Shown here piece by piece: positions 1,132-57,556 of a stretch of 64,000 nucleotides of DNA; position 1 is the stretch's first letter, and every line of letters starts with the position of its first letter. The stretch lies in assembly GCA_903826405.1 (NCBI GenBank), contig CAIKEH010000012.1, positions 1 through 64,000 on the forward strand, written 5' to 3'. This DNA comes from an uncultured bacterium. GTDB lineage: Bacteria > Bacteroidota > Bacteroidia > Chitinophagales > Chitinophagaceae. Position numbers and translations under genes: made by a program. The notes below the pieces were generated by a model, which was not told the DNA's origin, did not search any database, and worked only from the letters and a program-made list of their open reading frames with translations.

Positions 1132-1139
1132 TACCTTTG
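1132..1139 (+). promoter_or_regulatory. -7 box TACCTTTG abutting the DUF2480 start
   Basis: A perfect match to the Bacteroidota -7 consensus TAnnTTTG. Only four bases (AAGC) separate it from the ATG at 1144, so transcription would begin at or next to the start codon. A T-rich stretch (the terminator tail) sits at the -33 position. See the leaderless finding. Confidence 0.55.
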
Positions 1140-1143
1140 AAGC

Positions 1144-1656
1144 ATGGGAGACATGATTGTCAATAAAGTGGCGGAAAGTGGCCTCATTACCCTTGATCCC
1201 TCCAGTTTTATTCCCAAGGAGGATATTGCTTCAGTTGACCTGAAGGATTTCTTGTTCAGGGGAATAATCCTGAAAGAAAAGGATTTCCGGGAATCGATGC
1301 AGACAAAAAACTGGTCTGCATACGCTGGTATGAAAGTCTCCGTATTCTGTTCCGCAGACGCGATCATTCCCATGTGGGCCTACATGCTCATTGCTGCACA
1401 ACTAACTGCTGTCGGGGCGCAGGCTTTTTCCGGAACGCCCGACGAATTTCGTAAAAGCATCTTCATAGGCAATCTGGGAAACATCGATCCGGAAAAATAC
1501 CGGGATCAACGCGTAGTGGTCAAGGGATGTGGGGATGAACCCATCGGTGAATACGCATACTTGGAGATCACGAAAAAGCTACAACCCTATGTGAAAAGCC
1601 TGATGTACGGGGAGGCTTGCAGTGCAGTGCCGGTATATAAAAAAAAGATGGTGTAA
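1144..1656 (+). CDS. DUF2480 family protein
   Basis: This 170-residue protein matches the DUF2480 family of Bacteroidota: start IVNKVAESGLITLD, then FREKDFRE-like ILKEKDFRES, the CSADAIIPMWAYM segment and a C-terminal GxxCSxVP region (GEACSAVPVYKK). No signal peptide or membrane segment is seen, so it is probably cytosolic. Its function is unknown. A conserved cysteine in CSADA and a C-terminal cysteine could matter for metal binding or redox chemistry, but that is only a guess. The ATG at 1144 fits the family start better than the one at 1153. It converges with the RidA gene, with only three bases between the stops. Confidence 0.85.
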   Translation: MGDMIVNKVAESGLITLDPSSFIPKEDIASVDLKDFLFRGIILKEKDFRESMQTKNWSAYAGMKVSVFCSADAIIPMWAYMLIAAQLTAVGAQAFSGTPDEFRKSIFIGNLGNIDPEKYRDQRVVVKGCGDEPIGEYAYLEITKKLQPYVKSLMYGEACSAVPVYKKKMV

Positions 1657-1659
1657 GTC

Positions 1660-2181
1660 TTATTCCAGCTCAACCACCATTTCCACTTCCACGGGGATAT
1701 TACCCGGAAGAGAGTTCACGCCGATCGCGGATCTGGCATGCCGGCCTTTCTCTCCGAATATTTCCACCATGAGATCGGAACACCCATTGATGACCGCAGG
1801 TTGTTGAGTGAACGAAGGAACGCAGTTTACCAAACCGAGCAGTTTCACGACACGCTTCACTTTTCTCAGGTCTCCGCCTGTGGCATCTTGCAAGGTGGCG
1901 ATCAGTTGTATGCCAGTGAGCCTCGCGGCCTCATATCCATCCTTCAACTCAAGACCTTCTCCAATTTTCCCGGTGACCTGTTCACCATTGGCCTTATTGG
2001 GCCCATGTCCAGATACGAAGACCAGGTTTCCTGTTCGTACATATTTCACATAGTTGGCGATGGGCTTGGTGGGAACGGGAAGGTCGATGCCCGCTTTCTT
2101 TAGATTGGCATATGGGTCGTCCTGAGCTGAAGAATCAGTTGTGTAGAAAAGGACCGATAATAACAGGATCATTTTATTCAT
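1660..2181 (-). CDS. exported RidA (YjgF) family protein
   Basis: A RidA/YjgF fold protein of 173 residues. In the cytosol RidA hydrolyses reactive enamines and imines made by PLP enzymes. The core is seen from about residue 30 (VPTKPIANYVKYVRTGNLVFVSGHGP) to the C-terminus, with the substrate-binding arginine in HARSAIGV and the family ending VEVEMVVELE. Unlike the usual 125-130 residue form, it begins with a clear signal peptide (MNKMILLLSVLFYTTDSSAQ), so it should be periplasmic. Its substrate there is unknown. It is likely transcribed alone, convergent with the DUF2480 gene. Confidence 0.88.
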   Translation of the reverse strand: MNKMILLLSVLFYTTDSSAQDDPYANLKKAGIDLPVPTKPIANYVKYVRTGNLVFVSGHGPNKANGEQVTGKIGEGLELKDGYEAARLTGIQLIATLQDATGGDLRKVKRVVKLLGLVNCVPSFTQQPAVINGCSDLMVEIFGEKGRHARSAIGVNSLPGNIPVEVEMVVELE

Positions 2182-2199
2182 AAAATGGGTTTTTATTTG

Positions 2200-3294
2200 T
2201 CAGAACCATCCTCTTTTCCGGAATGCCCAAAGCATCCAGAGCGGAATGAGGAGCATCATGGTGACCGCGAAATAAAACCCCCAATGTTGGTGTGCATAGG
2301 GGATGATATCGAAATTCATTCCGAAGATACCGCCGATCACAGTAGCCGGAGCGAGCAGACAGGTTACAATGGCCATCACCTTCATCACTTCATTCATCTT
2401 CAGATTGACATTGTTGATGTATAGATCCTGCAGCCCGACCATCATGTCACGATAGTTCTCTGCGAGGTCATAAGCCTGATTGATGTGATCAGAAACATCC
2501 TTGAAATATTTCATGGTCCGGTCCTCCAGCAGGTCGCTTTCGCTTCGGACCATATTGTTGACAAGGTCTCTGACGGGGCCTGTGTTCCTTTTCAGCACGA
2601 TGAGTTCCTTTCGGAGTTGGTTGATCTTGGCGAGAGCCCTCGTGCTGCTTCGGCGAATGACTTCTTCCTCCAACAGCTCGATCTGTTCGCCTAGTTTCTC
2701 CATGACCACAAAATAATTGTCGACGATCATATCCAGCATCGCATAACAGAGGTAATCGCTTTTCCTCATCCTGATTTGGCTTTTCGGCATATGAATCTTC
2801 ACCCTGATGGGATCGAAAACATCACGGGATGAATCTTCCTGGAAGGAAAGCAGAAAATCCGCACCCAGAACGATGCTGATCTGTTCGGTCTCCACCGTCT
2901 TGTTCTCTTCATTGAAATAAAGCATGTTCAGCAGGCAGAATACCACATTTTCCACTTCGTCCATTTTGGGACGTTGCCCCATGCTCAATATATCTTCAAC
3001 CAGGAGACTATGAACGCCATAATGATTACAGACCAACTCCACCTCCGCTTTCCTGATCCCGTCGATGTTTATCCAGGTTACGCGTTTTGAATTCTTGTAA
3101 TTCAGGCAATCCTCTATACGCTCCGAACGGGATTCATTCAGGTGATCTTCATCGTAGTCATATATCAGCAGGCTGCTGGATTCCGCATCCACCCGTGATG
3201 AGGCGGCGGTAGGGTTGACGATGAGGATCTCTTTTGTCCTTTCCGTACCGAACAAGGTCGGGAGGCCCAGAAATTTTAGGTAGCTGTTGCTCAT
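2200..3294 (-). CDS. corA: CorA-type magnesium/cobalt transporter
   Basis: A 364-residue CorA family channel for Mg2+ (and Co2+). The large N-terminal cytosolic domain (about 1-300) is followed by two C-terminal membrane helices. The signature GMN motif (GGIFGMNFD, near residue 325) ends the first helix, and the last helix is rich in M and L before a basic end (FRKRGWF). The ATG at 3294 has a good ribosome site (TAAGGA) directly upstream, and a 7/8 -7 box (TAATTTTT) lies 20 bases before it. No partner gene is seen; the downstream RidA gene lies 18 bases away on the same strand and might be cotranscribed. Confidence 0.93.
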   Translation of the reverse strand: MSNSYLKFLGLPTLFGTERTKEILIVNPTAASSRVDAESSSLLIYDYDEDHLNESRSERIEDCLNYKNSKRVTWINIDGIRKAEVELVCNHYGVHSLLVEDILSMGQRPKMDEVENVVFCLLNMLYFNEENKTVETEQISIVLGADFLLSFQEDSSRDVFDPIRVKIHMPKSQIRMRKSDYLCYAMLDMIVDNYFVVMEKLGEQIELLEEEVIRRSSTRALAKINQLRKELIVLKRNTGPVRDLVNNMVRSESDLLEDRTMKYFKDVSDHINQAYDLAENYRDMMVGLQDLYINNVNLKMNEVMKVMAIVTCLLAPATVIGGIFGMNFDIIPYAHQHWGFYFAVTMMLLIPLWMLWAFRKRGWF

Positions 3295-3363
3295 TCCTTA
3301 AGAATATCAGCAGAAAAATTACTGAATAAAACCCAATGATGGATACCCGGGTTGGAACTGTTA

Positions 3364-4713
3364 TCAGCGCAGCGTCTGTTTCCCCCTTGCTTTGTTATAA
3401 GCGATTCGGGCAACGAGAAAATCATGGAGTTGTCGGTAAAGGGTATCCTGTTCCAGAAGCAGTTGGGTATCCTCATCAAGAAGGTCCTGTGGTCTGGCCC
3501 TTCCTTCCTGCAATCGGCTTTTTACAAGAGTGATCCTATCTTCACGGATGGCTATGCGTTCTTTCTGAAGATGGACAAGCTTCCATTGGTAGGCCAGATT
3601 TTGTCTTGTTTTCACAAGGTCGTAGTAAAATTGCTGTCTCAGTTTCCGAACCGTATTGGTTTGCTGTTCAGCCTGTATGCCGGCCTGATCCACCTCATAG
3701 CGTGTAGCCCCCCCTTTGTACAGGGGCCAGCGTAAACTCAGGCCAAGAAAGCTATTGCCATACCAATTCATGAAAGGGTTGAACTGCTGATTGAAATGAT
3801 TTGCGCCGAGGAATCCCTCGAAATTCAGTTTGGGCAGGCGTTCCGCTTTCTTGCTGTCCAATTCCAGATTCTTGATGTCCAGGTTGATCTTTTCCTCTTC
3901 AAGTTCAGGCCTGTTTTCTGCACCTTCCGCAGCGTCTATTTCTGACATCCAGGTGCTGTCTCGGAGCGCAGGGACCTCCATCAATCTTTCGGAAGGCGTG
4001 ATGAGCAGGAGGCTGTCGTATCCTAAAAGGGCGCTTAGATTGACTTGTCCTGTGAGGATATCCTGTTCGATCTTCTCTTTTTCGATTCTGGCGGTACGGA
4101 TGCGTAATCGGGCATCCATCAGATCATTGTCGAGGGCACGTCCGCTCTTCAATTGTTCTTCGATGATATTGGCATTGCCTTTTGCCCGTTCTTCGTCTTT
4201 AGCGGAAAAGGTGATCCTAGACCTGTCGAGCAGCAGGGAGAACCAAGCTTGCGCGATCTCTTCCTCTCGGTCCGCTTTCAATCTTTTCTCCTGTGCCAGC
4301 GCCAAGTTCTCAACCGTCTTGGTATTGTTTATAGCCACCAGTTTGGTCGGGTCATAAAGTGGTTGGATGAGTCGCAGGCCTGCTGCTGTGTTCCAGGCCG
4401 TGTTGAATTTGATGGGGATGAGCTTGTTCGGGTCTCCAGTAGGGTTGAGTGCGTTTCCGGGCAGGATGTTTGTGGGGACGATGGTGTTGTAGCGCATGTC
4501 GGTTTCCAGCGTAAGTTGTGGCAGATAGCCCGCTTTCGCCACTTTAGTGGATGCTTGTGCGTATCGGATGTTGGCGTGGGCGTTCTGCAGGTCCGGCTGT
4601 TGTCGTGCGGCTATGGTCAGCGCCTCGTCGAGACTCATGGTGACGCTTCGGGGTTGCTGAGCGTTTGCATGAAGTCCGATCACGATCAAGGCAAATAGGT
4701 ATCTGATACGCAT
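3364..4713 (-). CDS. TolC-family outer-membrane efflux protein
   Basis: A 449-residue outer-membrane channel subunit with a signal peptide (MRIRYLFALIVIGLHANAQ) and the two repeated helical-hairpin/beta segments of the OEP family (around 28-215 and 245-435). It should trimerise into the outer-membrane exit duct of the exporter encoded just upstream. It is the last gene of the ATPase-adaptor-permease-TolC operon, starting 11 bases after the permease stop. Substrate specificity cannot be read from the sequence. Confidence 0.92.
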   Translation of the reverse strand: MRIRYLFALIVIGLHANAQQPRSVTMSLDEALTIAARQQPDLQNAHANIRYAQASTKVAKAGYLPQLTLETDMRYNTIVPTNILPGNALNPTGDPNKLIPIKFNTAWNTAAGLRLIQPLYDPTKLVAINNTKTVENLALAQEKRLKADREEEIAQAWFSLLLDRSRITFSAKDEERAKGNANIIEEQLKSGRALDNDLMDARLRIRTARIEKEKIEQDILTGQVNLSALLGYDSLLLITPSERLMEVPALRDSTWMSEIDAAEGAENRPELEEEKINLDIKNLELDSKKAERLPKLNFEGFLGANHFNQQFNPFMNWYGNSFLGLSLRWPLYKGGATRYEVDQAGIQAEQQTNTVRKLRQQFYYDLVKTRQNLAYQWKLVHLQKERIAIREDRITLVKSRLQEGRARPQDLLDEDTQLLLEQDTLYRQLHDFLVARIAYNKARGKQTLR

Positions 4714-4724
4714 AACCGAATATT

Positions 4725-5852
4725 TTATCCCCTGAAGACCGATGCGGGTTCAAGAGAGATGATCCTTTTGATGGCAAATGAGGCCCCTCCGATCGATATC
4801 ACCAGGGTGACCACGAAAAAAGCGAAGATGATCCCCGGAGTGAATTCAAAGACCGTTCCTGCTTTGGACACACCACGCCGGAAGAGGTCTATGAACAGGT
4901 ATCCTAGAGCGAAGCCGACCAATGAAAACAGGAATGCCTGAAGCAGGATGAGTCGAACTATATATCCATTGGAGGCTCCGATACCTTTGAGTGTTCCGTA
5001 GTCCCGGATGCGATCGAGTGCTGCGGAATACATGGTCAGTCCGATGATGAAGAATCCGGCTATGAGCGCAAAAACGATCAGTGATCCGATGCTGAAACCG
5101 ATCCCGCTGTTGGAGAGCAGGAAATTGACCGTGGACGCTTCGAAGTCCTTTGAAGTCCAAGCCCGCACGCCGAAAACAGACTTGTTTATCCTGTCCCTGA
5201 CCATAATGGGGTCTGTCCCGGGAGTGACATCAAGAAGAACCGCACTAACCGTATTATTGGACTGATTTCCAAAAAACCTTGCTTTTTCGATGTTCGTGAA
5301 CAGGAACACACCCCCGAACCCCCGTACACCTCGAGTTTGGACGGCGATCACCGCTTTCTTGCCGTTTATTTCGAAACGAGTGCCCAATAAGGCACCACCG
5401 AGTGTGGCCCGATCGAAATAATCGGCACTCACCGCGCCATCCTCAAGTAGGTCCTCTATCTTTCCTCCGATGATTTTTTCTTTCTTCAGGCCGATCCTAT
5501 AGGCGGGCTCATCACTACCGATAACCTGTACGCCCGCCGTTGTCCCATTGTCGAATTGTGCAGTACCCCCGGCAACGACCACGGGAAAAACTTGGGCAAC
5601 ACCTTCCACGCTTTGGATCTCACGAACTTTCCGTATGTCCAGTTTTCCCAGTGCATTGGCATTGACCGTCTTGCTGTCCACCACCCAGAGATCGGACTTC
5701 GAGTTGACCACTAGGGCTTTCATCGCATTCGTGAGGAATATGAAAATGCCGGTCTGCTGACCAATCAGGAAGATGCTGATGATGATTCCGATGACGATGC
5801 CCAGACTTTTGGCCTTGTCGTATTTCATGAATTGCCAAGCGTATCGCAACAT
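4725..5852 (-). CDS. ABC exporter permease (FtsX/MacB/DevC type)
   Basis: An inner-membrane permease of 375 residues. One membrane helix near the N-terminus (GIVIGIIISIFLIG) is followed by a periplasmic domain of about 200 residues, then three C-terminal helices (around residues 250-370) ending in the FtsX-like domain. This 1+3 topology is that of MacB/DevC mechanotransmission exporters. The frame extends 29 codons further upstream, but the ATG at 5852 (MLRYAWQFMKYDKAK) gives the normal family start and avoids overlapping the adaptor gene, which ends at 5863. It acts with the ATPase and adaptor upstream and TolC downstream. Confidence 0.88.
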   Translation of the reverse strand: MLRYAWQFMKYDKAKSLGIVIGIIISIFLIGQQTGIFIFLTNAMKALVVNSKSDLWVVDSKTVNANALGKLDIRKVREIQSVEGVAQVFPVVVAGGTAQFDNGTTAGVQVIGSDEPAYRIGLKKEKIIGGKIEDLLEDGAVSADYFDRATLGGALLGTRFEINGKKAVIAVQTRGVRGFGGVFLFTNIEKARFFGNQSNNTVSAVLLDVTPGTDPIMVRDRINKSVFGVRAWTSKDFEASTVNFLLSNSGIGFSIGSLIVFALIAGFFIIGLTMYSAALDRIRDYGTLKGIGASNGYIVRLILLQAFLFSLVGFALGYLFIDLFRRGVSKAGTVFEFTPGIIFAFFVVTLVISIGGASFAIKRIISLEPASVFRG

Positions 5853-5862
5853 GTCCGATGGC

Positions 5863-6816
5863 TTATTGAGTGATGATGTGGCATTCCACTTGCCTGTTGA
5901 TGAGCATGTCCTGATTATCGAGGAGGATGCGCACTTCACGCACTCGACGATCCTCCTTCTCTCCCACCTGATCGCTGAAGAGTGATTTCTTCTTGAGGTA
6001 AGGTGCGGTGTAGAGTACGGTGCCCGTTGAAATGGTATCAGGGTATCCTTTATAGGTTATATAAGATCGTTGTCCATTCTTCACTTGCTCAGCGAAAAGC
6101 TCGTCCACTTCGCATAGTGCAGTTAGTTTGCCCGCAGGAGCGAGTTGAGCAAAGGAGATGCCTGGGCTAACTGCCGAACCTGAACGTGCGGTGACCAGAA
6201 GAATGAGTCCATCAGCGGGGGCACGCACCACATATTTTCCAGAACCTGCTTTGGCAGTATTGATCTGGGCTTGAGACTCAGCCACCTTTTTCTCCGTCAC
6301 CCGCAAGCTGGCCATTTCATTCTGTACGGCGATCTTCTTTTTTTCCAATTCATTCTTCGCATTATCCAGCTGCTCCTGTGTTTCAGCCTTCTTTTCCACC
6401 AACCGGCTTGTCCGATCGAAATCGATCTGTGCTTTTTGGAGGTTGTTCTGTGCATCATTGATCCGTGTCTGTTGGAGAGCCGTCTCCTGCTGCTGGGAAC
6501 GCAGTTTAGCTTCAGCCTCTGCGACTTGTGCAGATTGAATACTATTATCCAATATCAGCATGGGCATGTCTTTTTTCACGGACTGACCCTCTTTGATGAG
6601 GACTTGGCGGATGATACCTGAAACATCGGCAGAAAGATCCGTGATGCCACTCTCAGGTTCGATACGCCCGGTGGCATTGACCTTGTTGATGACGGGCCTG
6701 ATCAAAGTATCCGTTTTTTGGTCTCCCGGTTGAGCTGTCTTTTCCTGTTTTCCACCCTTGCAGGCCGTTATGCCGGCTAAAAGGAGAAGGGTGATTCCTA
6801 AGATGGATGTGCGCAT
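5863..6816 (-). CDS. lipoprotein periplasmic adaptor (HlyD/MacA/DevB family)
   Basis: A 317-residue membrane-fusion protein bridging the permease and TolC. It starts with a lipoprotein signal (MRTSILGITLLLLAGITAC, lipobox AGITAC), so it is lipid-anchored. Next come a lipoyl/barrel-sandwich half (GRIEPESG...GIIRQVLIKEGQSVKK), a long coiled-coil hairpin rich in Q, E and A (about residues 95-190), the returning lipoyl half (VRAPADGLILLVTARSG) and a beta-barrel domain. The coiled coil is long, as in DevB. The start at 6816 is chosen because it gives the lipobox; upstream codons would overlap the ATPase gene. Confidence 0.9.
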   Translation of the reverse strand: MRTSILGITLLLLAGITACKGGKQEKTAQPGDQKTDTLIRPVINKVNATGRIEPESGITDLSADVSGIIRQVLIKEGQSVKKDMPMLILDNSIQSAQVAEAEAKLRSQQQETALQQTRINDAQNNLQKAQIDFDRTSRLVEKKAETQEQLDNAKNELEKKKIAVQNEMASLRVTEKKVAESQAQINTAKAGSGKYVVRAPADGLILLVTARSGSAVSPGISFAQLAPAGKLTALCEVDELFAEQVKNGQRSYITYKGYPDTISTGTVLYTAPYLKKKSLFSDQVGEKEDRRVREVRILLDNQDMLINRQVECHIITQ

Positions 6817-6823
6817 GGTGTGG

Positions 6824-7516
6824 TCAAATGTTTTGAATGATCTCGGTTTTGCTGATCTCGCCGTTGTCCACATATATGATCTCATCGGCGAAAGGTTTCA
6901 ACCTCATGTCATGGGTAACAATGGCAACGGCTTTTCCTTCTCTCGCCAACGCCCTCAATTCCTCCATGACCAACTGTGCACTCGCGGAGTCAAGGCTGGC
7001 AGTAGGTTCGTCACAAAGCATGATCGGGGGCTCGGTCACCAGTGCGCGTGCAATGGCGATCCTTTGTTGTTCTCCACCGCTCATCATTTTGGGTAGACTG
7101 GATGCCCGATGCGACATGTTCACTTTGGTCATGGCATCCTTTACCCGTTTTTTGGCTTCTGATGCGGAGATGTTCATCAGGGTGAGCGGAAGCATGATAT
7201 TCTGTTCTGCACTGAGTGGCGCCAGCAGATTGAACTGTTGAAATACGAAACCTATCTTGTTGAGGCGAAGGCCAGCCATCTTGCGGGCATTCAAAGAACT
7301 CGTTTTCACCCCGTCTATGATCACTTCTCCCGAAGTGGGGTAAATGACACATCCAATCAGGGAGAGTAAGGTTGTTTTTCCGGAACCCGATGGCCCCAGT
7401 ATCAGCGTGAGCTTGCCTGCTTCCAGTTGCATGCTGGAGGGTTTCAAAGCCGTGATGATGGAGTCCCCGCTTTTGAATTCCTTGGATGCTTTGATGACTT
7501 GTGCTATGGGAGACAT
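6824..7516 (-). CDS. ABC exporter ATP-binding protein (MacB/LolD class)
   Basis: A 230-residue ATPase with Walker A GPSGSGKTT, Q-loop FQQFNLL, the signature MSGGEQQRIAIAR, Walker B IMLCDEPTASLD and the H-loop IVTHD. It powers the FtsX-type permease encoded two genes downstream. It is the first gene of the exporter operon; the adaptor ATG lies 7 bases after its stop. The short single-domain form plus separate permease is DevA/LolD-like rather than the fused MacB layout. Confidence 0.93.
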   Translation of the reverse strand: MSPIAQVIKASKEFKSGDSIITALKPSSMQLEAGKLTLILGPSGSGKTTLLSLIGCVIYPTSGEVIIDGVKTSSLNARKMAGLRLNKIGFVFQQFNLLAPLSAEQNIMLPLTLMNISASEAKKRVKDAMTKVNMSHRASSLPKMMSGGEQQRIAIARALVTEPPIMLCDEPTASLDSASAQLVMEELRALAREGKAVAIVTHDMRLKPFADEIIYVDNGEISKTEIIQNI

Positions 7517-7538
7517 ATGGGTTGTTCAGGGTCCTAAA

Positions 7539-8642: not shown

Positions 8643-8678
8643 ACACCTTTATTTATTGGCCCTTACCGGACCAGAAGC

Positions 8679-15428: not shown

Positions 15429-15436
15429 CGAAATTA
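15429..15436 (-). promoter_or_regulatory. -7-like box TAATTTCG abutting the kdsB GTG
   Basis: A 7/8 match to TAnnTTTG with four bases (TCCA) between it and the GTG start. It has the same spacing as several perfect boxes in this window, which strengthens it. Confidence 0.4.
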
Positions 15437-20677: not shown

Positions 20678-20685
20678 TACATTTG
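20678..20685 (+). promoter_or_regulatory. -7 box TACATTTG abutting the yafV start
   Basis: A perfect TAnnTTTG box separated from the ATG at 20690 by only four bases (GTGC). A TTG triplet lies 23 bases upstream at the -33 position. It predicts a leaderless transcript that starts after recX. Confidence 0.5.
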
Positions 20686-20689: not shown

Positions 20690-21514
20690 ATGTCCGATCT
20701 CTCCATCACCACCATCCAGACTGATCTTTCCTGGGAAGACCCTGCCGCGAATTTGAGCATGCTCGAACACAAGATCCGGGGCATTAACACGCATACTGAA
20801 GTCGTCATCCTTCCAGAGATGTTCTCCACCGGTTTCAGCATGCGACCTGAGGTATTCGCGGAAGAGATGGATGGGCCATCTGTTCTGTGGATGAAGCGAT
20901 TGGCGAGGGAGAAGAACATCATACTGACCGGTAGCCTGATGATTCGTGAGGTAGGCACAGGTTCAAACGAAGGAGCGGCTTATTTCAACCGGCTCATTTG
21001 GATGTTGCCCAATGGACAGTACGGATATTACGATAAGCGCCACTGTTTCGGATTGGCCGGTGAGGATAGGCATTACCGGTCGGGGAACAAACGCCTCATC
21101 GCTTCGGTGAAGGGATGGAGAGTGAACCTGCTCATCTGTTACGATCTACGTTTCCCGATATGGTCAAGGCAAACACCTCAGCAGAACAATGGCGGAGCGG
21201 TGCAGCCGGAATTCGATCTGATGGTTTTTGTGGCCAACTGGCCGGAACGCCGTGTTCATGCGTGGAGAACGCTGCTCCAGGCCCGCGCCATCGAAAACCA
21301 ATGTTATGTGGCTGGGGTCAACAGGGTGGGTAAGGATGGCGGCGAGATCTACCACAGTGGTGATAGCCTTGTTGCTGGACCACTGGGCGAAATACTTTAT
21401 CACCGCGAACATGATGAGGATGTGCATACCCTCACACTTTCCCGAAAGCTTCTGGATGAAACCCGGGAGAAACTGCCTTTTTGGAAAGATGCGGACAGGT
21501 TCACGATACTTTGA
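20690..21514 (+). CDS. omega-amidase, YafV/Nit2-like carbon-nitrogen hydrolase
   Basis: A 274-residue nitrilase-superfamily enzyme. The catalytic triad is seen as Glu in VVILPEMFSTGFS, Lys in YYDKRHCFGLAGE and Cys in LLICYDLRFP. YafV-type members hydrolyse alpha-ketoglutaramate, the by-product of glutamine transamination, to 2-oxoglutarate and ammonia. The start MSDLSITTIQTDLSWEDP fits this subfamily, so the ATG at 20690 is used and not the earlier one that overlaps recX. It is cytosolic and converges with the S41 gene. Confidence 0.9.
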   Translation: MSDLSITTIQTDLSWEDPAANLSMLEHKIRGINTHTEVVILPEMFSTGFSMRPEVFAEEMDGPSVLWMKRLAREKNIILTGSLMIREVGTGSNEGAAYFNRLIWMLPNGQYGYYDKRHCFGLAGEDRHYRSGNKRLIASVKGWRVNLLICYDLRFPIWSRQTPQQNNGGAVQPEFDLMVFVANWPERRVHAWRTLLQARAIENQCYVAGVNRVGKDGGEIYHSGDSLVAGPLGEILYHREHDEDVHTLTLSRKLLDETREKLPFWKDADRFTIL

Positions 21515-23107: not shown

Positions 23108-24136
23108 TCATTTTTTGAAAGCGTTCCAGCCCTGTGCGGTGATAGGGTGTGTGTTGCCACCCTTGGTGATGATCCTGGCACCTTCGGCCGCATCAGTCAT
23201 ATAGCCGATAACGGTGATCTGGTCGTACTGGAGTAGCTGGTCATAATCCTTTTGATCGACCGTGAATAACAACTCATATTCTTCCCCGCCACTGAGCGCA
23301 CACGCTGTGGGGTCGAGTTCGAATTTGTAGGCAGCCTTCCGGGTCTCCTCCATGATGGGTATTTTTTCTTCATAGAGTACGGCACCAACACTGCTGCTTT
23401 CGCAGATATGCAGTATCTCCGAGCTCAATCCATCACTGATGTCCATCATCGCCGTTGGTAATATTCCGCCTTGTTCGAAGAATTGAATGATATCCTGCCG
23501 TGCTTCGGGCTTAAGCAGACGTCCTATCACATAGTCTTCCCCTTCCAGGTCTGGTTGTATATTGGGATTTTCGAGATAGATCTTCTTTTCCCTTTCCAGG
23601 AATAATAGCCCTAGATAAGGGGCGCCCAAAGCTCCGCTGCAACAGAGCAGATCACCCTTCTTCGCGCCACTTCTTTTAACCAGTTTGTCCGCTGCCACCT
23701 CGCCGATAGCCGTGATCGAAATGATGAATCCCTTTTGAGAGGAAGCTGTATCCCCACCCACCAGATCGACACCATAAGTGTCACATGCGGCGTAAACGCC
23801 CTCATAAAATTCTTCCAGCGCCTCCACGGGAAAACGGTTGCTGATGCCGAGACTCAAGGTGATCTGTGTCGGTTGAGCGTTCATGGCGAAAATATCGCTG
23901 ATGTTCACAACGACACTTTTGTATCCGAGGTGTTTGAGCGGGGTGTACATGAGGTCGAAGTGCACTCCTTCGATGAGCAAGTCCGTAGTGACGACCGTTT
24001 GCTTCCCATAGTGGTCGATGACTGCTGCATCATCTCCCACACCCAATATGGAGGACACGTTCTGAAGTTCGATGTTTTTGGTCAGGTGACGGATGAGTCC
24101 GAATTCCCCATAGTCAGCGATCTCTGTTCTTTCCAT
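23108..24136 (-). CDS. thiL: thiamine-monophosphate kinase
   Basis: A 342-residue PurM-like ATP-dependent kinase that phosphorylates thiamine monophosphate to the coenzyme thiamine diphosphate. Motifs: GEFGLIRHL, LGVGDDAAVID, TTDLLIEGVHFD, GGDTASS and MMDISDGLSSEI. No other thiamine gene lies nearby. The family start MERTEIADYGEFG fixes the ATG at 24136, and a perfect -7 box lies four bases before it. The C-terminal half is of normal length. Confidence 0.95.
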   Translation of the reverse strand: MERTEIADYGEFGLIRHLTKNIELQNVSSILGVGDDAAVIDHYGKQTVVTTDLLIEGVHFDLMYTPLKHLGYKSVVVNISDIFAMNAQPTQITLSLGISNRFPVEALEEFYEGVYAACDTYGVDLVGGDTASSQKGFIISITAIGEVAADKLVKRSGAKKGDLLCCSGALGAPYLGLLFLEREKKIYLENPNIQPDLEGEDYVIGRLLKPEARQDIIQFFEQGGILPTAMMDISDGLSSEILHICESSSVGAVLYEEKIPIMEETRKAAYKFELDPTACALSGGEEYELLFTVDQKDYDQLLQYDQITVIGYMTDAAEGARIITKGGNTHPITAQGWNAFKK

Positions 24137-24140: not shown

Positions 24141-24148
24141 CAAAATTA
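24141..24148 (-). promoter_or_regulatory. -7 box TAATTTTG abutting the thiL start
   Basis: A perfect TAnnTTTG box on the minus strand with four bases (CAGG) before the thiL ATG. It predicts an mRNA that begins at the start codon. Confidence 0.5.
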
Positions 24149-26851: not shown

Positions 26852-27625
26852 TCAAGCCTGATCGTTGATCCAACGCAGCAACTCGTCGTGGATCCTGCCG
26901 TTGGTGGCCACTATGCGTGGCTGGTAGGGGGAATAGGGATCCCCCTTGAAATCTGTGACACGTCCACCGGCTTCTTCAACGAGCAGGAAGCCCGCCGCGC
27001 TGTCCCAAGCGTTGAGCTTATGTTCATAGAAACCATCGAAGCGCCCAGCAGCCACCCAACATAGATCGATCGCTGCAGAACCCAGTCGACGGACCGGAAT
27101 GCCTTTTCGTATCAGACGGGCAAAGACTTCAAGGGGGCCATTGGGCATGTCGAGATAGGTATAGGGAAATCCAGTGACCAGACAGGACTGGATCACCTCG
27201 GTCTTATTGCTGACATGTATGGGCTTCCCGTTGAGGAAAGCTCCCTTTCCTCTCTCGGTGAAATACATCTCCTCTAAAAAAGGATTGTAGATGGCACCCA
27301 TGATCATGACCCCCTCATTCTCGAGGCCAATACTCACACAGCAGAGGGGTATCCCGTTCGCATAATTGACCGTACCGTCTATGGGGTCGATGATCCATTT
27401 GTACGGCGAGTCGGTACTGACCTCGCCGATCTCCTCACTCAGGATGAAATGATCCGGAAATTGTTCACGGATGATGTCCATGATCAGTTTTTCCGAAGCA
27501 TGGTCAACTTCGGTGACCAGATTATTGATCCCTTCTTTGTTGTCGATCCTGAAACCACTGTTGAAGCGGGATTTCATCAGTTGACCCGCTTCCTGTGCGG
27601 CCTTGAGTATGGTCGTTTTCAGCAT
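26852..27625 (-). CDS. suhB: inositol monophosphatase family protein
   Basis: A 257-residue Mg2+-dependent phosphatase. Motifs: metal-binding LVTEVDHASEKLI, EEIG, WIIDPIDGTVNYANGIP and WDSAAGFLLVEEAGG. It dephosphorylates inositol-1-phosphate or related sugar phosphates; bacterial SuhB proteins also act in rRNA transcription, and this cannot be told apart here. ATG at 27625 fits the family N-terminus; a TTG six codons earlier lies inside the -7 region and is unlikely. A perfect -7 box lies four bases before the start. Confidence 0.9.
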   Translation of the reverse strand: MLKTTILKAAQEAGQLMKSRFNSGFRIDNKEGINNLVTEVDHASEKLIMDIIREQFPDHFILSEEIGEVSTDSPYKWIIDPIDGTVNYANGIPLCCVSIGLENEGVMIMGAIYNPFLEEMYFTERGKGAFLNGKPIHVSNKTEVIQSCLVTGFPYTYLDMPNGPLEVFARLIRKGIPVRRLGSAAIDLCWVAAGRFDGFYEHKLNAWDSAAGFLLVEEAGGRVTDFKGDPYSPYQPRIVATNGRIHDELLRWINDQA

Positions 27626-27629: not shown

Positions 27630-27637
27630 CAAAGGTA
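27630..27637 (-). promoter_or_regulatory. -7 box TACCTTTG abutting the suhB start
   Basis: A perfect TAnnTTTG box on the minus strand with four bases (GGCC) before the ATG at 27625. It predicts a leaderless mRNA. Confidence 0.5.
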
Positions 27638-50479: not shown

Positions 50480-50488
50480 GTCAGCAAT

Positions 50489-51085: not shown

Positions 51086-51148
51086 CCCTACCCTTGGAGA
51101 GGGTCCAGGATGTGCCAAATTATGAAAATGCACGCGCACCCGGCGACA

Positions 51149-51182
51149 TTTGAGCACCTTCTTTCCATAATGAGTATATTTG
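51149..51182 (+). promoter_or_regulatory. strong promoter of the KAS III-like gene
   Basis: TTTG (51149-51152), a 22-base spacer and TATATTTG (51175-51182) match both halves of the Bacteroidota consensus exactly. The leader to the ATG at 51228 would be about 40 bases. Confidence 0.65.
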
Positions 51183-51227
51183 GTCGAAGTGCAGGCCTGT
51201 GATCACCAACCCAGGCGCCAACACCAC

Positions 51228-52298
51228 ATGAACAGATCCGTCATCACCGGAACAGGGGCATGCATTCCTTCTGAGATCAAAGCGAATCGTGATTTCACCG
51301 TACATGATTTTTATGGGGAGGACAGCAAACGAATCGATACACCATCCACGGTGATCGTGGAAAAGTTTGCTGCAATCACGGGTATTGATGAAAGAAGGTA
51401 TGTGATGTCTGAACTCAACACCTCTGATATTGCTTCCATCGCGGCACGTGAAGCCATCATCGATAGCGGGGTGGATCCTGAGACGCTGGATCAGATCATC
51501 ATGGCACATAATTTCGGTAACGTCCTCAAGAATACGATCCAGTGTGATGCCGTTCCATCACTTGCCAGCAGGGTCAAACACCAGCTCGGGATCAGAAACC
51601 CCAACTGTGTTGCTTACGATATTCTTTTCGGTTGCCCAGGATGGGTACAAGGTGTGATTCAGGCAGATGCTTATTTCAAGGCGGGGATGGCAAAAAAATG
51701 TCTCGTGATCGGTGCGGAAACCCTTTCCCGTGTGATCGACGCCTACGACAGGGATAGCATGATCTTTTCCGACGGAGCAGGGGCTACAGTGATGGAATAC
51801 CGTGAAGTTGCTGAAAACGGACCCGGAATATTGGGTCATGGGGTACAATCCCACTGTTTGGATGAGGCTTATTACATATACATGGGTATGTCGAACTTCC
51901 CGGAAAGCGACCCCCATGTTCGTTACATCAAGATGAAAGGGCGCAAGGTTTATGAATATGCCATCGTCCACGTACCGCTTGCGATGAAGGAATGCTTAGA
52001 CAAGAGCGGCATCCCCATCGAACAAGTGAAGAAAGTCTTCATACATCAGGCCAACGAGAAGATGGATGAAGGCATCATCAAGGCTTTTTACAAACTGTAT
52101 GGCGCAACCGCACCAAAGGACATCATGCCCATGAGCATCCATTGGCTAGGCAACAGCTCGGTGGCCACCGTTCCCACTCTGTACGATCTGGTACGAAAAG
52201 GAAAAGAAAAAGACCACAACCTGAAGGCAGGTGATGTGGTCCTTTTCGCATCCGTTGGAGCCGGAATGAATATCAATGCGGTCTGCTACCGCTATTGA
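51228..52298 (+). CDS. 3-oxoacyl-ACP synthase III family protein
   Basis: A 356-residue thiolase-fold condensing enzyme. The catalytic cysteine is in DILFGCPGWVQG, with His in VFIHQANEKM and Asn in HWLGNSSVAT. FabH condenses acetyl-CoA with malonyl-ACP; members of this size with FGCPGW in place of the usual ACSGF are FabH-like enzymes probably using other acyl starters, for branched or aryl-type lipids. This is inference. It is not in a fab operon, so the symbol fabH is not given. ATG at 51228 matches the family start MNRSVITGTGACIPS. Confidence 0.86.
   Translation: MNRSVITGTGACIPSEIKANRDFTVHDFYGEDSKRIDTPSTVIVEKFAAITGIDERRYVMSELNTSDIASIAAREAIIDSGVDPETLDQIIMAHNFGNVLKNTIQCDAVPSLASRVKHQLGIRNPNCVAYDILFGCPGWVQGVIQADAYFKAGMAKKCLVIGAETLSRVIDAYDRDSMIFSDGAGATVMEYREVAENGPGILGHGVQSHCLDEAYYIYMGMSNFPESDPHVRYIKMKGRKVYEYAIVHVPLAMKECLDKSGIPIEQVKKVFIHQANEKMDEGIIKAFYKLYGATAPKDIMPMSIHWLGNSSVATVPTLYDLVRKGKEKDHNLKAGDVVLFASVGAGMNINAVCYRY
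52199..52241 (-). terminator. OmpA-gene terminator inside the convergent gene
   Basis: On the minus strand GACCACA pairs with TGTGGTC, with an inner CCTG/CAGG stem, and is followed by TTTTTCTTTTCC. It lies 60-100 bases after the OmpA stop, within the coding end of the KAS III-like gene. Confidence 0.5.
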
Positions 52299-52300
52299 TC

Positions 52301-53170
52301 TTATCCTTTTTTAGGTTCGAGCAAGTTGAAGAATTGATCCAGCTGGGGTAGGATCACGATGCGTGTGCGGCGGTTCGTGGCCTTGCCTTCTGGCGTATTG
52401 TTCGGAGCCACCGGTACGAACTCGGCCCTGCCCGCAGCAGCGATCTTCTTTGGGTCCATTCCATATTGTTTCTGCAGGATCCGTACCACGGATGTTGCCC
52501 GTTTCACACTGAGATCCCAGTTATCCACCAGTACTCCTTTGCTGAAAGGGGCATCATCCGTATGCCCTTCCACCATATATTCGATATCAGGTTGATTCTT
52601 GAGCACCATTGCAACTTTACCCAGCACTTCCTTTGCATGGTCAGTCACATCATAACTCCCGCTCTTGAAAAGCAGCTTGTCCGAAATATCGATGAAAACG
52701 ACACCCTTGTCCACCTTGATGTTGATATCCTTATCCTCCATGTTGCCGATCGCACCTTTCAGGTTCATGACCAAAGCCATATTGAGGGAGTCCTTGCGCG
52801 ACATCTCCGTCTGCAAGGTTTGGATATAGGCATCTTTAGCACCGATGTTCTCCATTGACTTTTTTATGCTCTCCGCCTGCTGTGAAGAAATGACGGACAT
52901 GTCCTGCAGGGATTTAATAGTCTGTGAGTTGTTCTCCTTGAGGAAGGTGACTTTGTCGTTAAGCGCATTGACCTGACTTTCCAGTCCTGCTTTGTCACGC
53001 ATCAGCAGTGATTTGTCATTTTCACAACCCTTGAGGGTGTTTTGCAGATCGGAATACTTTTTGTTTAGGTCGGCCACTTTTGCCTCTTCTGCCTTGAATT
53101 GTTTGCTGCTGACGCAGGAAAAGAGCAGGACTGACAGTGTCGCTGAAAACAGGAGATGATGAGTTTTCAT
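52301..53170 (-). CDS. OmpA family lipoprotein
   Basis: A 289-residue lipoprotein (lipobox LLFSCVSS). Residues about 25-150 form a coiled coil (KAEEAKVADLNKKYSDLQN), and residues about 170-289 are the OmpA peptidoglycan-binding domain with YMVEGHTDDAPFS, NWDLSVKRATSVVRIL and NRRTRIVI. It links the outer membrane to the cell wall. It converges with the KAS III-like gene with only two bases between the stops. Confidence 0.93.
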   Translation of the reverse strand: MKTHHLLFSATLSVLLFSCVSSKQFKAEEAKVADLNKKYSDLQNTLKGCENDKSLLMRDKAGLESQVNALNDKVTFLKENNSQTIKSLQDMSVISSQQAESIKKSMENIGAKDAYIQTLQTEMSRKDSLNMALVMNLKGAIGNMEDKDINIKVDKGVVFIDISDKLLFKSGSYDVTDHAKEVLGKVAMVLKNQPDIEYMVEGHTDDAPFSKGVLVDNWDLSVKRATSVVRILQKQYGMDPKKIAAAGRAEFVPVAPNNTPEGKATNRRTRIVILPQLDQFFNLLEPKKG

Positions 53171-53480
53171 GATGTTGAATGGTTTTATAATTGGAGTTGG
53201 GATACCAAATTAAGACTTTATCCGCTCAGGATTGCAAGCGGTGCAAAAAAAGTGAAGGGTGAAACGGAATAGGGGAACAGGATATACCCCTGGAAAAGCA
53301 CCAGCAATCCGTTGCTGATTTAAATAGTGCAAGCCAAGGTAGGTGCACGCATGTGGGCTTTTCATTTCCTGACTTTTAAAATTGAACTCTCGGCATTTGT
53401 CCTCAAGCCATGCGGATGTACTTCCATCGTGGTCATACAGCTAAAAAGAGGCGCCGGAATATTCTCAGTATCTTGCATGC
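53171..53480. other. 310-base intergenic region between ompA-like and obgE
   Basis: It separates two divergent genes. A shortened -7 box lies at the very end (see obgE); no clear promoter for the OmpA-like gene and no RNA structure were found. Confidence 0.6.
53469..53476 (+). promoter_or_regulatory. shortened -7 box TATCTTGC near the obgE start
   Basis: A shortened form of TAnnTTTG (one T missing) four bases before the ATG at 53481, the same spacing as at yafV, thiL, suhB and DUF2480. No TTTG is found at -33. Confidence 0.35.
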
Positions 53481-54485
53481 ATGGAGCGTTCCAATTTCGT
53501 CGATCAGATCAGGGTGTTCTGTAAAAGTGGTCATGGAGGAGCCGGAAGCCGCCATTTCATGCGTACCAAGTTCAATCCACAGGCAGGTCCCGACGGTGGC
53601 GATGGAGGCAGGGGGGCACATATCATCCTTCGGGGTAACAAGAACCTGTGGACCCTTCTTCACCTCCGGTATTATAAAAATGTACTGGCTGAAGATGGCA
53701 AAGGTGGTGATAAGAATAATATGACCGGACGCGATGGAAAGGATATCATTATTGAAGTACCATTAGGTACGATCGCGAGGGATGAGGAAACTGAGGGCAA
53801 AGAAGCCGAGATCCTGGAGGATGGGCAGGAGATCATCTGGCTTAGGGGAGGCAGGGGAGGATTGGGCAATAAGAATTTCGCCACCGCCACCAATCAGGCT
53901 CCGGAATATGCTCAACCCGGTGAGTCCGGGGTCGAGGGTTGGAAAGTCCTTGAACTGAAGGTGCTGGCTGACGTGGGACTCGTGGGCTTCCCGAATGCCG
54001 GGAAATCCACCCTGCTGTCGTCCATCACCGCCGCAAAACCCAAGATCGCCGATTACGCCTTCACCACCCTCATCCCGCAGTTGGGCATGGTTGAATATCG
54101 AGACGGACGTTCTTTCTGTGTAGCCGATCTTCCGGGCATCATCGAGGGTGCAGCGGAAGGACGTGGTCTTGGACACCGTTTCCTCAGACATATTGAAAGG
54201 AACCCCGTGCTCCTATTCCTGATACCGGCAGACAGTAAAGACCATGGTGCGGAATGGAGGATACTGCTGCACGAACTGGAGAAATATAATTCCGAATTAC
54301 TCGATAAAAAGATCATCATCGCCATCAGTAAAAGTGACATGCTCGATTCGGAACTGAAGATCGCCATCGAAAAGGAACTTCCCCGGGACATCCCACATAT
54401 CTTCATATCCTCCGTCACGGGTCTGGGTTTACAACCGCTGAAGGACTTGCTCTGGAAGAGCCTGCAGGAAGATCCTGCTGTCTGA
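53481..54485 (+). CDS. obgE: GTPase Obg (CgtA)
   Basis: A 334-residue essential GTPase of ribosome assembly and stress control. The glycine-rich Obg fold (1-158, [20 protein letters not shown]) precedes the G domain with P-loop [12 protein letters not shown]3 [16 protein letters not shown] and G4 ISKSD. The C-terminal OCT domain of longer Obg proteins is absent, as is frequent in this phylum. It is monocistronic by layout. Confidence 0.95.
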
Positions 54486-54569
54486 GACAGGCGCTACCTC
54501 ATATATCCCATCCAGATCGGACGGGCTCTGTATTCACCTATGCAAAGGCCGTGTTTCAGCAGGCGGCTC

Positions 54570-54603
54570 TTTGGAGCCAAATGCCCAATAAAGTGTAGGT
54601 TTG
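54570..54603 (+). promoter_or_regulatory. strong promoter of the S46 peptidase gene
   Basis: TTTG (54570-54573), a 22-base spacer and TAGGTTTG (54596-54603) match both consensus halves exactly. The leader to the ATG at 54623 is about 13 bases. The spacer length equals that of the KAS III-like promoter. Confidence 0.65.
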
Positions 54604-54622
54604 TCGCCTAAAGCATGGCGAT

Positions 54623-56785
54623 ATGAAAAAGATACTGATCACTCTTTCCCTTTCCCTCCTTTTCATCAGAGGTATGGCAGATGAGGGTATGTGGCTTCCC
54701 CTACTTTTAGGTCAGCAGGTATATGATGATATGGTGAAGAAAGGTCTGAAACTGACCAAAGAACAATTGTACAGCATCAACAAAGCATCCGTGAAAGATG
54801 CGATCATCATATTCGGTGGTGGATGCACCGGAGAGATAGTGAGTTCCAAAGGGCTCATCTTCACCAATCATCACTGTGGATATGCGGCCATTGCTGCGGC
54901 CAGCTCCGTTCAGAATAATTACCTCCGAGATGGTTTTTATGCCCGCACGCAGGCAGATGAGATCCCTGCAACCGGATACAGCGTTCAGTTCCTGCTGAAG
55001 ATCGAGGATGTGACCAATCGTATGGATAGTGTCCTGAAAGGGCTTAGCGGTACCGAGCGTTCCAAAAAAGCTGCAGACGCCATGGCAGCGATCAATCAAC
55101 AATATTCCGATGTCGCATCGGGTGTCGAGGCAAGGGTGAATGCGCTTTTCAAAGGCAACCAATACATGGTCTTCGTCTATCAGCGATACAAGGATATTCG
55201 ATTGGTGGGTGCGCCACCGGAGAGTGTAGGCAAATTCGGTGGTGATACTGACAACTGGGAATGGCCCAGACATACGGGAGATTTTTCCGTATTCCGTGTT
55301 TATGCAGACAAAGATGGGAAACCTGCCGACTATGCCCCTTCCAACACACCGCTGAAACCCAAATATTACCTGCCGGTCTCCATCAAGGGTTTGAAGGACG
55401 GCGACTTTTCCATGATCTACGGTTATCCCGGTGGTACGAACCGCTATGAGAGTTCCTATGGCGTGAAATTGAAAACGGATATCGAAAACCCTTCCCTGGT
55501 CGAATTGCGCGATATGCGGCTGAAGTACATGTTCGAGCAGATGAAGAACGATCCTGCAGTGAAACTCAAACTGGCATCGAACTATGCGAGCATAGCCAAT
55601 TATTGGAAATTCTTTGATGGAGAGACCAAACAGCTCCTGAAGTACAGGGTATATGAACAAAAACAAGCGGAGGAGCAGGCTTTCCTCAATTGGGCAAAGG
55701 GCAAGCCCGAGTATGAGCAAATCTTCAACGATTGGAAAAAGGCTTATGATCAATGGAGGCCATATGCGAGACACCGCATGTACATGACAGAGGGTATAAT
55801 CGGTTCCCCGCTACTGGCGTATGCCTCGTCTCTCATGCAACTCGAAAATGAAATGGTCAAGAAAGGGGTGGACCATGCGGATACCAAGAAAGCCCTTTCC
55901 GCTGCCGACAAGGCCCGAACCAATTATCTATCGGAGTCCAACACCACCTCAGATAAAAAGATCGTCGCTGATGCCCTTAGACTGTTTCACGATAATATAA
56001 ACAAGGACCAGCATCCCATTGGATTTTATGAAGGTATGCGCAATACCTATGGCGACCTCAAGGATAATGCGACGTATGCTAAATTCAGTGAGAACATATT
56101 TACGAACACAATGATACTTGATGATGCCAAGTGGAAAGCATTCATGGCGAAGCCGGATGCGCTCACCCTGCAGAATGATGCGGCCTATTCCACCGCGAGT
56201 ACATTCGTCCGAAACTACAACAGCAAATACGGTCCTTTCCGCCAGCAGTTCATTGCCGCCAACGACGACCTTCAGCGCCTGTACTTGAAGGGAGTCATGC
56301 AGATGAATCCGGGGAAGAAAATGTATCCGGATGCCACCTTCACCATGCGTGTGAGTTATGGCAATGTAAAAAGCTATCAGCCTCGTGATGCCGTCAAGTA
56401 CGATTATGTCTGTACGATGGCGGGCGTAATCGACAAATACAAACCCGGGGATTATGAATACGACCTACCTGCCAGATTGATTGAACTCGCAAAGAAGAAG
56501 GATTATGGCCAATATATTGACAGGCAGAGGAATGATCTGGTGGTCACTTTCATCACCACCAACGATATCACTGGTGGAAATTCCGGCTCTCCGGTGATGA
56601 ACGCCAAGGGTGAACTCATCGGGCTGGCTTTTGATGGAAACTACGAAGCGCTCAGCCATAAGATTGCTTTTGACAAGGACTTGAACCGGACCATTTGCGT
56701 GGACGTCCGCTATGTGCTCTGGTGCATAGATAAGTTGGGCGGTGCTCCGCAGATCGTCAATGAGTTGAAGTTGGTTAAGCAATGA
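54623..56785 (+). CDS. S46 family dipeptidyl-peptidase, DPP7-like
   Basis: A 720-residue exported serine exopeptidase of the DPP7/DPP11 family, which removes dipeptides from polypeptide N-termini in the periplasm. Signal peptide at 1-19; catalytic His84 in TNHHCGY, Asp in the GDTDNWEWPRHTGDFS segment and Ser654 in GGNSGSPV. The S1 pocket residue after GLAFD is Gly672, which in P. gingivalis marks DPP7 (hydrophobic P1), while DPP11 has Arg there (acidic P1). A strong promoter precedes it and a perfect hairpin follows. It suits growth on peptides together with the M1 and S41 peptidases. Confidence 0.94.
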   Translation: MKKILITLSLSLLFIRGMADEGMWLPLLLGQQVYDDMVKKGLKLTKEQLYSINKASVKDAIIIFGGGCTGEIVSSKGLIFTNHHCGYAAIAAASSVQNNYLRDGFYARTQADEIPATGYSVQFLLKIEDVTNRMDSVLKGLSGTERSKKAADAMAAINQQYSDVASGVEARVNALFKGNQYMVFVYQRYKDIRLVGAPPESVGKFGGDTDNWEWPRHTGDFSVFRVYADKDGKPADYAPSNTPLKPKYYLPVSIKGLKDGDFSMIYGYPGGTNRYESSYGVKLKTDIENPSLVELRDMRLKYMFEQMKNDPAVKLKLASNYASIANYWKFFDGETKQLLKYRVYEQKQAEEQAFLNWAKGKPEYEQIFNDWKKAYDQWRPYARHRMYMTEGIIGSPLLAYASSLMQLENEMVKKGVDHADTKKALSAADKARTNYLSESNTTSDKKIVADALRLFHDNINKDQHPIGFYEGMRNTYGDLKDNATYAKFSENIFTNTMILDDAKWKAFMAKPDALTLQNDAAYSTASTFVRNYNSKYGPFRQQFIAANDDLQRLYLKGVMQMNPGKKMYPDATFTMRVSYGNVKSYQPRDAVKYDYVCTMAGVIDKYKPGDYEYDLPARLIELAKKKDYGQYIDRQRNDLVVTFITTNDITGGNSGSPVMNAKGELIGLAFDGNYEALSHKIAFDKDLNRTICVDVRYVLWCIDKLGGAPQIVNELKLVKQ

Positions 56786-56854
56786 TCACTTGGCATTCAG
56801 CATTCGTTTGTTCTTTTACTGCGGCTGTGCTATTTTATTAATCATATATATGAA

Positions 56855-56893
56855 ATTCCCGGCGGAGAGTACTCTCCGCCGGATTTGTTTTGG
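56855..56893 (+). terminator. perfect-palindrome terminator after the S46 gene
   Basis: A 24-base perfect palindrome (56859-56882, half-site CCGGCGGAGAGT) is followed by ATTTGTTTTG. It lies 73 bases after the S46 stop and can fold into a long hairpin on either strand, so it may also end the convergent glycosylase transcript. Confidence 0.6.
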
Positions 56894-56945
56894 TGTATTC
56901 ATAATGGGAAAAATCAGACCAATTGGATTTCGGGTCCGGGAAGGG

Positions 56946-57545
56946 TCAGACACCGTCCTTCCAGCGCCATAAATAAAGGCAGGCATAAGTTCTGTAAGGG
57001 GACCATTTTGCTGCAATCCGTTGCATGTCCTCTTTCAATTTTTTCTTGGGTTCCTTTTCTAGTTTGTAGAGGCTGATCATCCCCTGCTGTATGCCCAGGT
57101 CATCCACAGCGAACACATCTTCCCGTTTCAGCGAGAACATGAGCAGCATTTCCACGGTCCATCTGCCTACACCTTTGATCTGCGTGAGGAGATGGATCAC
57201 CGCCTCATCGTTCATCTTCCGGATCTGTTTATTAGATAGGCCTTTTTCGATGAAGAATCTGGCTACGTTATGCATGTACTGAGCCTTGGCTAGGGAAAGG
57301 CCGATGGAGCGCAACACTTCAAGGGATGAAGCCAGCACCTGCTCTGCCGTAGGTTTCTTCCCTGAATAAAGATCAAGGAAACGTGAATGTATCACACGGG
57401 CCACCTTGGTGGAGAGTTGCTGACTGATGATGCTGGCAAATAGATCATTCATCAGGTCATTTGAACCGCGCAATTCTACTGGGCCGACTGCAGTCATCGC
57501 TTTTTTCAGGCGTTTATCCCGGGAAAGATGTTCTATATGAGACAT
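56946..57545 (-). CDS. DNA-3-methyladenine glycosylase (AlkA-like, HhH-GPD)
   Basis: A 199-residue base-excision glycosylase. The helix-hairpin-helix motif QIKGVGRWTVEMLLMF is followed by the catalytic aspartate in VFAVDDLGIQ. The AlkA-type ISQQLSTKVARVI lies near residue 42. It should remove alkylated purines from DNA. The N-terminal beta domain of E. coli AlkA is absent, so it is closer to the short yeast MAG / Bacillus type. Start is the ATG at 57545; a -7 box lies three bases before it. Confidence 0.9.
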   Translation of the reverse strand: MSHIEHLSRDKRLKKAMTAVGPVELRGSNDLMNDLFASIISQQLSTKVARVIHSRFLDLYSGKKPTAEQVLASSLEVLRSIGLSLAKAQYMHNVARFFIEKGLSNKQIRKMNDEAVIHLLTQIKGVGRWTVEMLLMFSLKREDVFAVDDLGIQQGMISLYKLEKEPKKKLKEDMQRIAAKWSPYRTYACLYLWRWKDGV

Positions 57546-57548
57546 AAT

Positions 57549-57556
57549 CAAAAGTA
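57549..57556 (-). promoter_or_regulatory. -7 box TACTTTTG abutting the glycosylase start
   Basis: A perfect TAnnTTTG box on the minus strand with three bases (ATT) before the ATG at 57545; it predicts a leaderless or nearly leaderless mRNA. Confidence 0.45.

Follow-up and report, generated by a model that had tools for sequence, protein, structure and literature searches.

The 64,000-nucleotide stretch analyzed here (the window; contig CAIKEH010000012.1, positions 1 to 64,000, from an uncultured Chitinophagaceae bacterium) contains four genes, a DUF2480 gene, yafV, thiL, and suhB, in which the promoter box TAnnTTTG ends exactly 4 bases before the predicted ATG, and genes with this arrangement are very probably leaderless, their sequence pointing to mRNAs that would start at, or about 1 base from, the A of the AUG. 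Throughout, spacing denotes the number of bases between the end of the box and the start codon, the strict box is TAnnTTTG, and start codons are those predicted. The box holds a fixed spacing, peaks at gene starts, recurs at the start codons of orthologous genes, and separates these genes from a second group with leaders. The clear case is suhB, where the box lies at the start codon in dozens of related genera.

The genome of origin is a draft of 3.585 Mb in 55 contigs. Gene-level tests were performed on 1.20 Mb of it (60 stretches plus the 64-kb window, including 4435 masked bases given as N), the remainder being used for pattern counts only, and 1020 genes were called in this sample with a coding-only model blind to the motif. 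At 1814 in-frame ATGs near gene starts, TAnnTTTG was found at spacing 4 at 16 sites, in 16 of the 1020 genes, whereas the 29 other orderings of the motif letters averaged 0.9 sites there and never exceeded 3; there were 4 sites at spacing 3, 3 at spacing 5, and, deep within the same genes, none at spacing 4. The sequence-only reading of the window had dismissed chance by reasoning that such a match occurs about once in 4096 positions, a loose argument whose conclusion is nonetheless upheld by the permuted motifs, and the enrichment at −12 that it named as a check is present as a sharp spacing-4 peak in this third of the genome as well as in the whole-genome pattern counts. When one box is counted per gene, spacing 4 holds 14 genes (0.6 expected, maximum 2), spacing 3 holds 3 (0.3 expected, maximum 2), and spacing 5 also holds 3, followed by 8 at spacings 6-9, 5 at 10-14, 29 at 15-19, and 16 at 20-24. 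The distribution is two-humped, with the box either at the start codon or ahead of a leader of ~11 bases and longer. Summed across spacings 0-100, the excess over permuted motifs amounts to ~119 genes, of which spacing 4 contributes 13.4. Three one-base variants behave similarly: TAnnTTTA has 10 sites at spacing 4 (mean elsewhere 1.7), TAnnTTCG has 5 at spacing 4 and 4 at spacing 5 (elsewhere mean 1.3, maximum 4), and TAnnTTTT has 5 at spacing 4 (elsewhere mean 1.3, maximum 5), while none of the remaining one-base variants stands out at spacing 4 in the own-genome sample. Leaderless mRNAs would be expected to start with AUG rather than GUG or UUG; all 16 strict spacing-4 boxes precede ATG, with 0 GTG and 0 TTG candidates, but GTG starts are few overall.

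The same spacing is favored across the family. In 98 family genomes (the comparison genomes being partly drafts), the spacing-4 pattern TANNTTTGNNNNATG has 9231 matches versus 4806 for its 10-base-spacing version, and it is the more frequent of the two in 97 of them, G075 being the sole exception, with a median excess of 45.5 per genome and an excess of 22 in the own genome. A reversed-pattern control gave 6995 matches at spacing 4 versus 6209 at spacing 10, the first being higher in 71 of the 98. Outside the family, matches to the spacing-4 pattern outnumber those to its reversed control in all 5 genomes of the same order (521 versus 304) and in 33 of 36 of the same class (3894 versus 2662). 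Among the 149 remaining phylum genomes, judged by eye, many have no excess (G161, 0 versus 8; G100, 2 versus 7) and some do (G236, 56 versus 8). A leaderless class may thus reach beyond the family, a lead only, as it is judged against the reversed control only.

The suhB gene of the window (26852..27625, minus strand; 257 aa, inositol monophosphatase family, Pfam Inositol_P E 3e-72) is predicted to be leaderless, with its −7 box TACCTTTG at 27630..27637 (minus strand) at spacing 4 from the ATG at 27625. A suhB match was found in 95 of the 98 family genomes, and 70 of these, nearer relatives first and the own genome included, entered the main count: 34 have the box at spacing 4, 22 at spacing 3, and 4 at spacing 5, giving 60 of 70, and the other 10 have no strict box at spacings 3-5. 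Of these ten, one belongs to the same genus (G053, locus L130) and carries TAACTTCG at spacing 4; two (L146 and L480) carry TAATCTTTG, with one extra base, adjoining the start; and the other seven are more distant copies (L511 and L514-L519; 57-61% identical), six of them with no box and one with a box at 36. Three family loci beyond the 70 have the box at spacing 3 (G004), 5 (G014), and 22 (G031). Since most of the lowest-ranking copies examined are without the box, the figure of 60 of 70 is too high for the family as a whole, 22 lowest-ranking genomes lying outside the count. In four of the boxless copies (L515-L518, from G097, G069, G062, and G020), the upstream sequences are alike by eye and resemble the end of another gene, and suhB may be in an operon in these genomes.

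Among the best 80 of 541 named suhB relatives, the nearest of which include Chitinophagaceae, Chitinophagales, Niastella, Sediminibacterium, and Flavihumibacter, 75 have the box near the start codon (68 at spacing 4, 6 at 3, and 1 at 5), and the five without a strict box show near-boxes at the same place by eye. The taxa of these nearest relatives make Chitinophagaceae the most likely family of the source genome. From −50 to −14, the top base reaches at most 37 of 68 at every position, indicating that the sequence around the box drifts and the box itself is retained. The Leu-2 codon directly after the ATG varies synonymously among relatives, which supports this ATG as the true start. Outside the class, 23 suhB loci from other classes of the phylum include 6 with a box 23-35 bases upstream and 16 with none; at L318, from another class, an unclear box stands at spacing 4 from an ATG that lies four codons upstream of where the gene is expected to begin.

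Recurrence at orthologous start codons extends to other genes and genera. A frame that is 80 or more codons long, or that runs open to the stretch end, follows 32 of the 57 matches to the 15-base pattern in the own genome, 48 of 55 examined in G065 (144 in total), and 32 of 48 examined in G003 (124 in total). For G065 genes with an orthologue in the own 1.20 Mb, 5 of the 11 orthologues also have spacing 4 (0.17 expected, binomial P 4e-7), and for G003 genes this is the case for 3 of 7 (0.11 expected, P 1e-4). These expectations use a base rate of 16/1020, which counts genes without a promoter of their own; taken instead from the spacing-4 share of strict-box genes (13.4/~119), they become about 1.2 and 0.8, respectively. 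Genes common to two or three of the genomes include, as named by Pfam in a scan of 20 frame-opening genes (18 own and 2 from G003), MnmE, a quinolinate phosphoribosyltransferase, a Glu/Gln-type tRNA synthetase, an E1 dehydrogenase, and an ABC-F-like ATPase. Protein alignments across genera begin at residue 1 on both sides for the ABC-F-like protein, DUF2480, yafV, suhB, MnmE, and GcpE. It is conceivable, if rather doubtful, that selection acts on leaderless initiation as a trait of a conserved Chitinophagaceae gene set, with suhB foremost and otherwise comprising MnmE, the tRNA synthetase, the phosphoribosyltransferase, the ABC-F-like ATPase, and the E1 dehydrogenase, and that it gives these genes a route of translation unlike that of most mRNAs, which have leaders and no Shine-Dalgarno site, and open to separate regulation. 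Five other spacing-4 genes of the own genome (L349, L327, L347, L337, and L321) include a peptide deformylase, a FolD-like protein, a protein-isoaspartate methyltransferase, an RNA uracil-5-methyltransferase, and a tRNA-binding protein, and several of the five touch translation.

The boxes in the window, in the own-genome sample, and at the suhB loci match the −7 consensus of Bacteroidota sigma-A, TAnnTTTG. G is scarce at the two n positions, occurring in 3 of 32 frame-opening own sites versus 8 of 25 other own matches, in 1/68 and 0/68 of the suhB boxes, and in 11/72 and 8/72 of the leadered strict boxes, and the available text on Flavobacterium johnsoniae gives the −7 consensus as TAHHTTTG, that is, with few G at these positions (PMC6847099). 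The base after the box is C in 8 of 14 spacing-4 boxes versus 42 of 72 leadered promoters. For the −33 TTTG element, T is only weakly enriched upstream of suhB between −36 and −34 (31, 37, and 34 of 68), and this element is described as weak in F. johnsoniae as well (PMC6847099). In consensus, scarcity of G, and the base that follows, the spacing-4 boxes are the same as Bacteroidota sigma-A promoters, differing solely in their placement relative to the start codon. Many F. johnsoniae promoters have the −7 box 4 or 5 nucleotides before the transcript start, according to the same text (PMC6847099), and, given this distance, spacing 4 would place +1 at the A of the ATG. The housekeeping sigma factor would be expected to bind the box, and RNA polymerase to initiate ~4 nucleotides past it, where the start codon sits; the mRNA would begin with the A of the AUG, give or take about a base, as mapping in another member of the phylum suggests, and ribosomes would, from what is generally known, initiate on the 5′-terminal AUG without a leader. 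The proposal of the sequence-only reading that these mRNAs are leaderless accordingly finds support in the genomic spacing-4 peak, the excess in 97 of 98 family genomes, and the published box-to-start distance.

That reading had also stated that these mRNAs lack a Shine-Dalgarno site, which is borne out and does not distinguish them, as the whole sample is without it: the core occurs between −18 and −4 at 39 of 735 ATG starts versus 67 of 735 at a control position. Since the cores are rarer than at the control position, initiation free of Shine-Dalgarno sites is the rule here, and the leaderless genes are a special case of it. Members of the Bacteroidota seldom rely on Shine-Dalgarno sites, and the way in which their ribosomes choose start codons is unsettled. 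As its box adjoins the start codon across dozens of genera, suhB offers a clean natural test of initiation at a 5′-terminal AUG in this phylum.

Several points weigh against leaderless transcription from these boxes. An additional promoter farther upstream could yield a leadered mRNA for the same genes. In the own genome, C precedes the A of the ATG in 15 of 32 cases, compared with 41% of other starts (P 0.58), so that no preference is detected; this C is commoner in G065 (30/48), G003 (20/32), and suhB (59/68), all compared with the own-genome background only. Avoidance of tight operons by spacing-4 boxes was likewise not detected (1 of 14, P 0.27), in a test of low power. The distant suhB copies are mostly without a start-codon box, and the 22 of 70 suhB loci with spacing 3 would require a start site one base nearer to the box than usual. 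The range of 3-5 among suhB relatives also lends something to the view that transcription starts 1-3 nucleotides upstream of the AUG, giving ultra-short leaders. This view overlaps with leaderless transcription and is a possible, though less probable, account, as the published distance of 4-5 nucleotides, in the available text of PMC6847099, sets +1 at the A for spacing 4.

The other explanations fare considerably worse. That the box acts in translation, as an mRNA signal whose distance from the start codon is fixed, would be compatible with the fixed distance taken alone and with the tight-operon result, but the box matches the established −7 promoter consensus and also makes up the second hump at 15-25, as promoters of short-leader mRNAs would; we consider a translational role very unlikely. 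Just as improbable, in our judgment, is that the predicted ATGs are wrong and that the box drives a leadered mRNA for a start codon farther downstream. The starts are indeed predicted, and only 32 of the 57 own matches open a long frame or one open to the stretch end, but the synonymous changes in the codon after the suhB ATG and the six cross-genus alignments from residue 1 argue for the starts as called. Chance matches of a short motif may account for single members such as obgE and thiL, and 25 of the 57 own 15-base matches open no long frame; for the class, chance is refuted by the permutation and deep-gene controls, the 97 of 98 genomes, and the conservation at suhB, and we give it hardly any weight. 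Leaderless transcription thus remains the reading that we favor for the spacing-4 genes.

Both strands of the window contain 22 TAnnTTTG matches, 5 of which are the four spacing-4 boxes and one box at spacing 3. These five boxes had been claimed by the sequence-only reading and were found where it placed them, as were two weaker boxes, and its gene names are consistent with Pfam matches for all seven genes. Besides suhB, the genes predicted to be leaderless are the DUF2480 gene (1144..1656, plus strand; 170 aa, Pfam DUF2480 E 6.9e-66), with box TACCTTTG at 1132..1139 (plus strand, spacing 4); the yafV-like carbon-nitrogen hydrolase gene (20690..21514, plus strand; 274 aa, Pfam CN_hydrolase E 1.8e-31), with box TACATTTG at 20678..20685 (plus strand, spacing 4); thiL (23108..24136, minus strand; 342 aa, Pfam AIRS E 1.1e-30), with box TAATTTTG at 24141..24148 (minus strand, spacing 4), for which the prediction applies to the own genome and is not conserved; and an AlkA-like HhH-GPD gene (56946..57545, minus strand; 199 aa, Pfam HhH-GPD E 3.3e-15), whose box TACTTTTG at 57549..57556 (minus strand) ends 3 bases before the ATG. 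A longer open frame for yafV begins 45 bases upstream, within recX, and yafV orthologues start at the same ATG as proposed earlier (20690). The weaker boxes are TAATTTCG of kdsB (Pfam CTP_transf_3) at 15429..15436 (minus strand), which is of the TAnnTTCG type, stands 4 bases before a GTG, and would make kdsB a GTG case with a variant box, and TATCTTGC of obgE (Pfam GTP1_OBG) at 53469..53476 (plus strand), 4 bases before the ATG and the weakest member. In the own-genome sample, boxes of the obgE type, TAnnTTG[CT], number 3 at spacing 4 and 8 at spacing 5, with most other spacings from 0 to 25 holding 0-3 (one holds 7). These boxes are similar to the SM5 promoter motif of Flavobacterium psychrophilum as given in the accessible part of PMC9723704 and are possibly a second promoter class.

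Conservation of these other genes, followed in 30 loci each for DUF2480, yafV, thiL, and obgE with the own genome included, is mixed. For DUF2480, the box is present in 22 of 30 loci (5 at spacing 4, 2 at 5, and 15 elsewhere) and absent from 8, and G065 also has it at spacing 4; for yafV, 2 of 30 loci have spacing 4, the own genome being one of them, and 1 has spacing 6, while the G065 gene, outside the 30 loci, is also at spacing 4. The spacing at yafV and DUF2480 is only partly conserved. Two candidates for conserved leaderless genes were rejected: thiL has spacing 4 in 1 of 30 loci, which is the own genome itself, and obgE has a strict box at spacing 4 in 1 of 30, elsewhere in 19, and none in 10. 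The set put forward by the sequence-only reading is thus mixed, the arrangement being conserved for suhB and not for thiL and obgE. The window contains 4 of the 16 spacing-4 boxes, the other 12 lying in the remaining 1.136 Mb, so that it is unusually rich in them and may have been chosen for that richness. The window yielded neither an Rfam family at gathering score nor a tRNA gene.

Leaderless mRNAs are already known in Bacteroidota at a few percent, and we found no report of a conserved set: a literature search, judged by title and with subscription journals mostly outside it, returned no conserved Chitinophagaceae leaderless set and no leaderless suhB. A computational survey of leaderless genes in Actinobacteria and Deinococcus-Thermus by Zheng in 2011, as far as its available text goes, called 1 of 37 Bacteroidetes/Chlorobi genomes (PMC3160421). 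It shares with the present work the prediction from a promoter box whose distance to the start codon is set, and it sought Pribnow-like boxes only, as its authors state, which suggests that surveys of this kind have undercounted leaderless genes in Bacteroidota. The pattern TAnnTTTG-N4-ATG may in turn help to correct predicted start codons. Nakagawa in 2017 likewise proposed leaderless mRNAs in Bacteroidetes from sequence, reading base biases before the start codon as a sign of leaderless mRNA and/or protein S1 sites; those biases are averages over the genes of 4 species, and the available text presents no −7 box at fixed spacing and names no gene (PMC5397173). Among RNA-mapped species, and within the portions of the reports available, leaderless mRNAs make up 5.5% of 890 coding sequences (CDSs) in F. 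psychrophilum (PMC9723704), ~3.7% of leaders are under 10 nucleotides in Bacteroides thetaiotaomicron (PMC7366714), and 87% of leaders exceed 10 nucleotides and 13% are 10 nucleotides or shorter in F. johnsoniae (PMC6847099). The class described here is like these in being a small leaderless minority in a phylum without Shine-Dalgarno sites. It differs in that those three species belong to other families and their transcripts were mapped, whereas the present class is a sequence prediction that recurs within a family and includes orthologues in which the spacing is retained.

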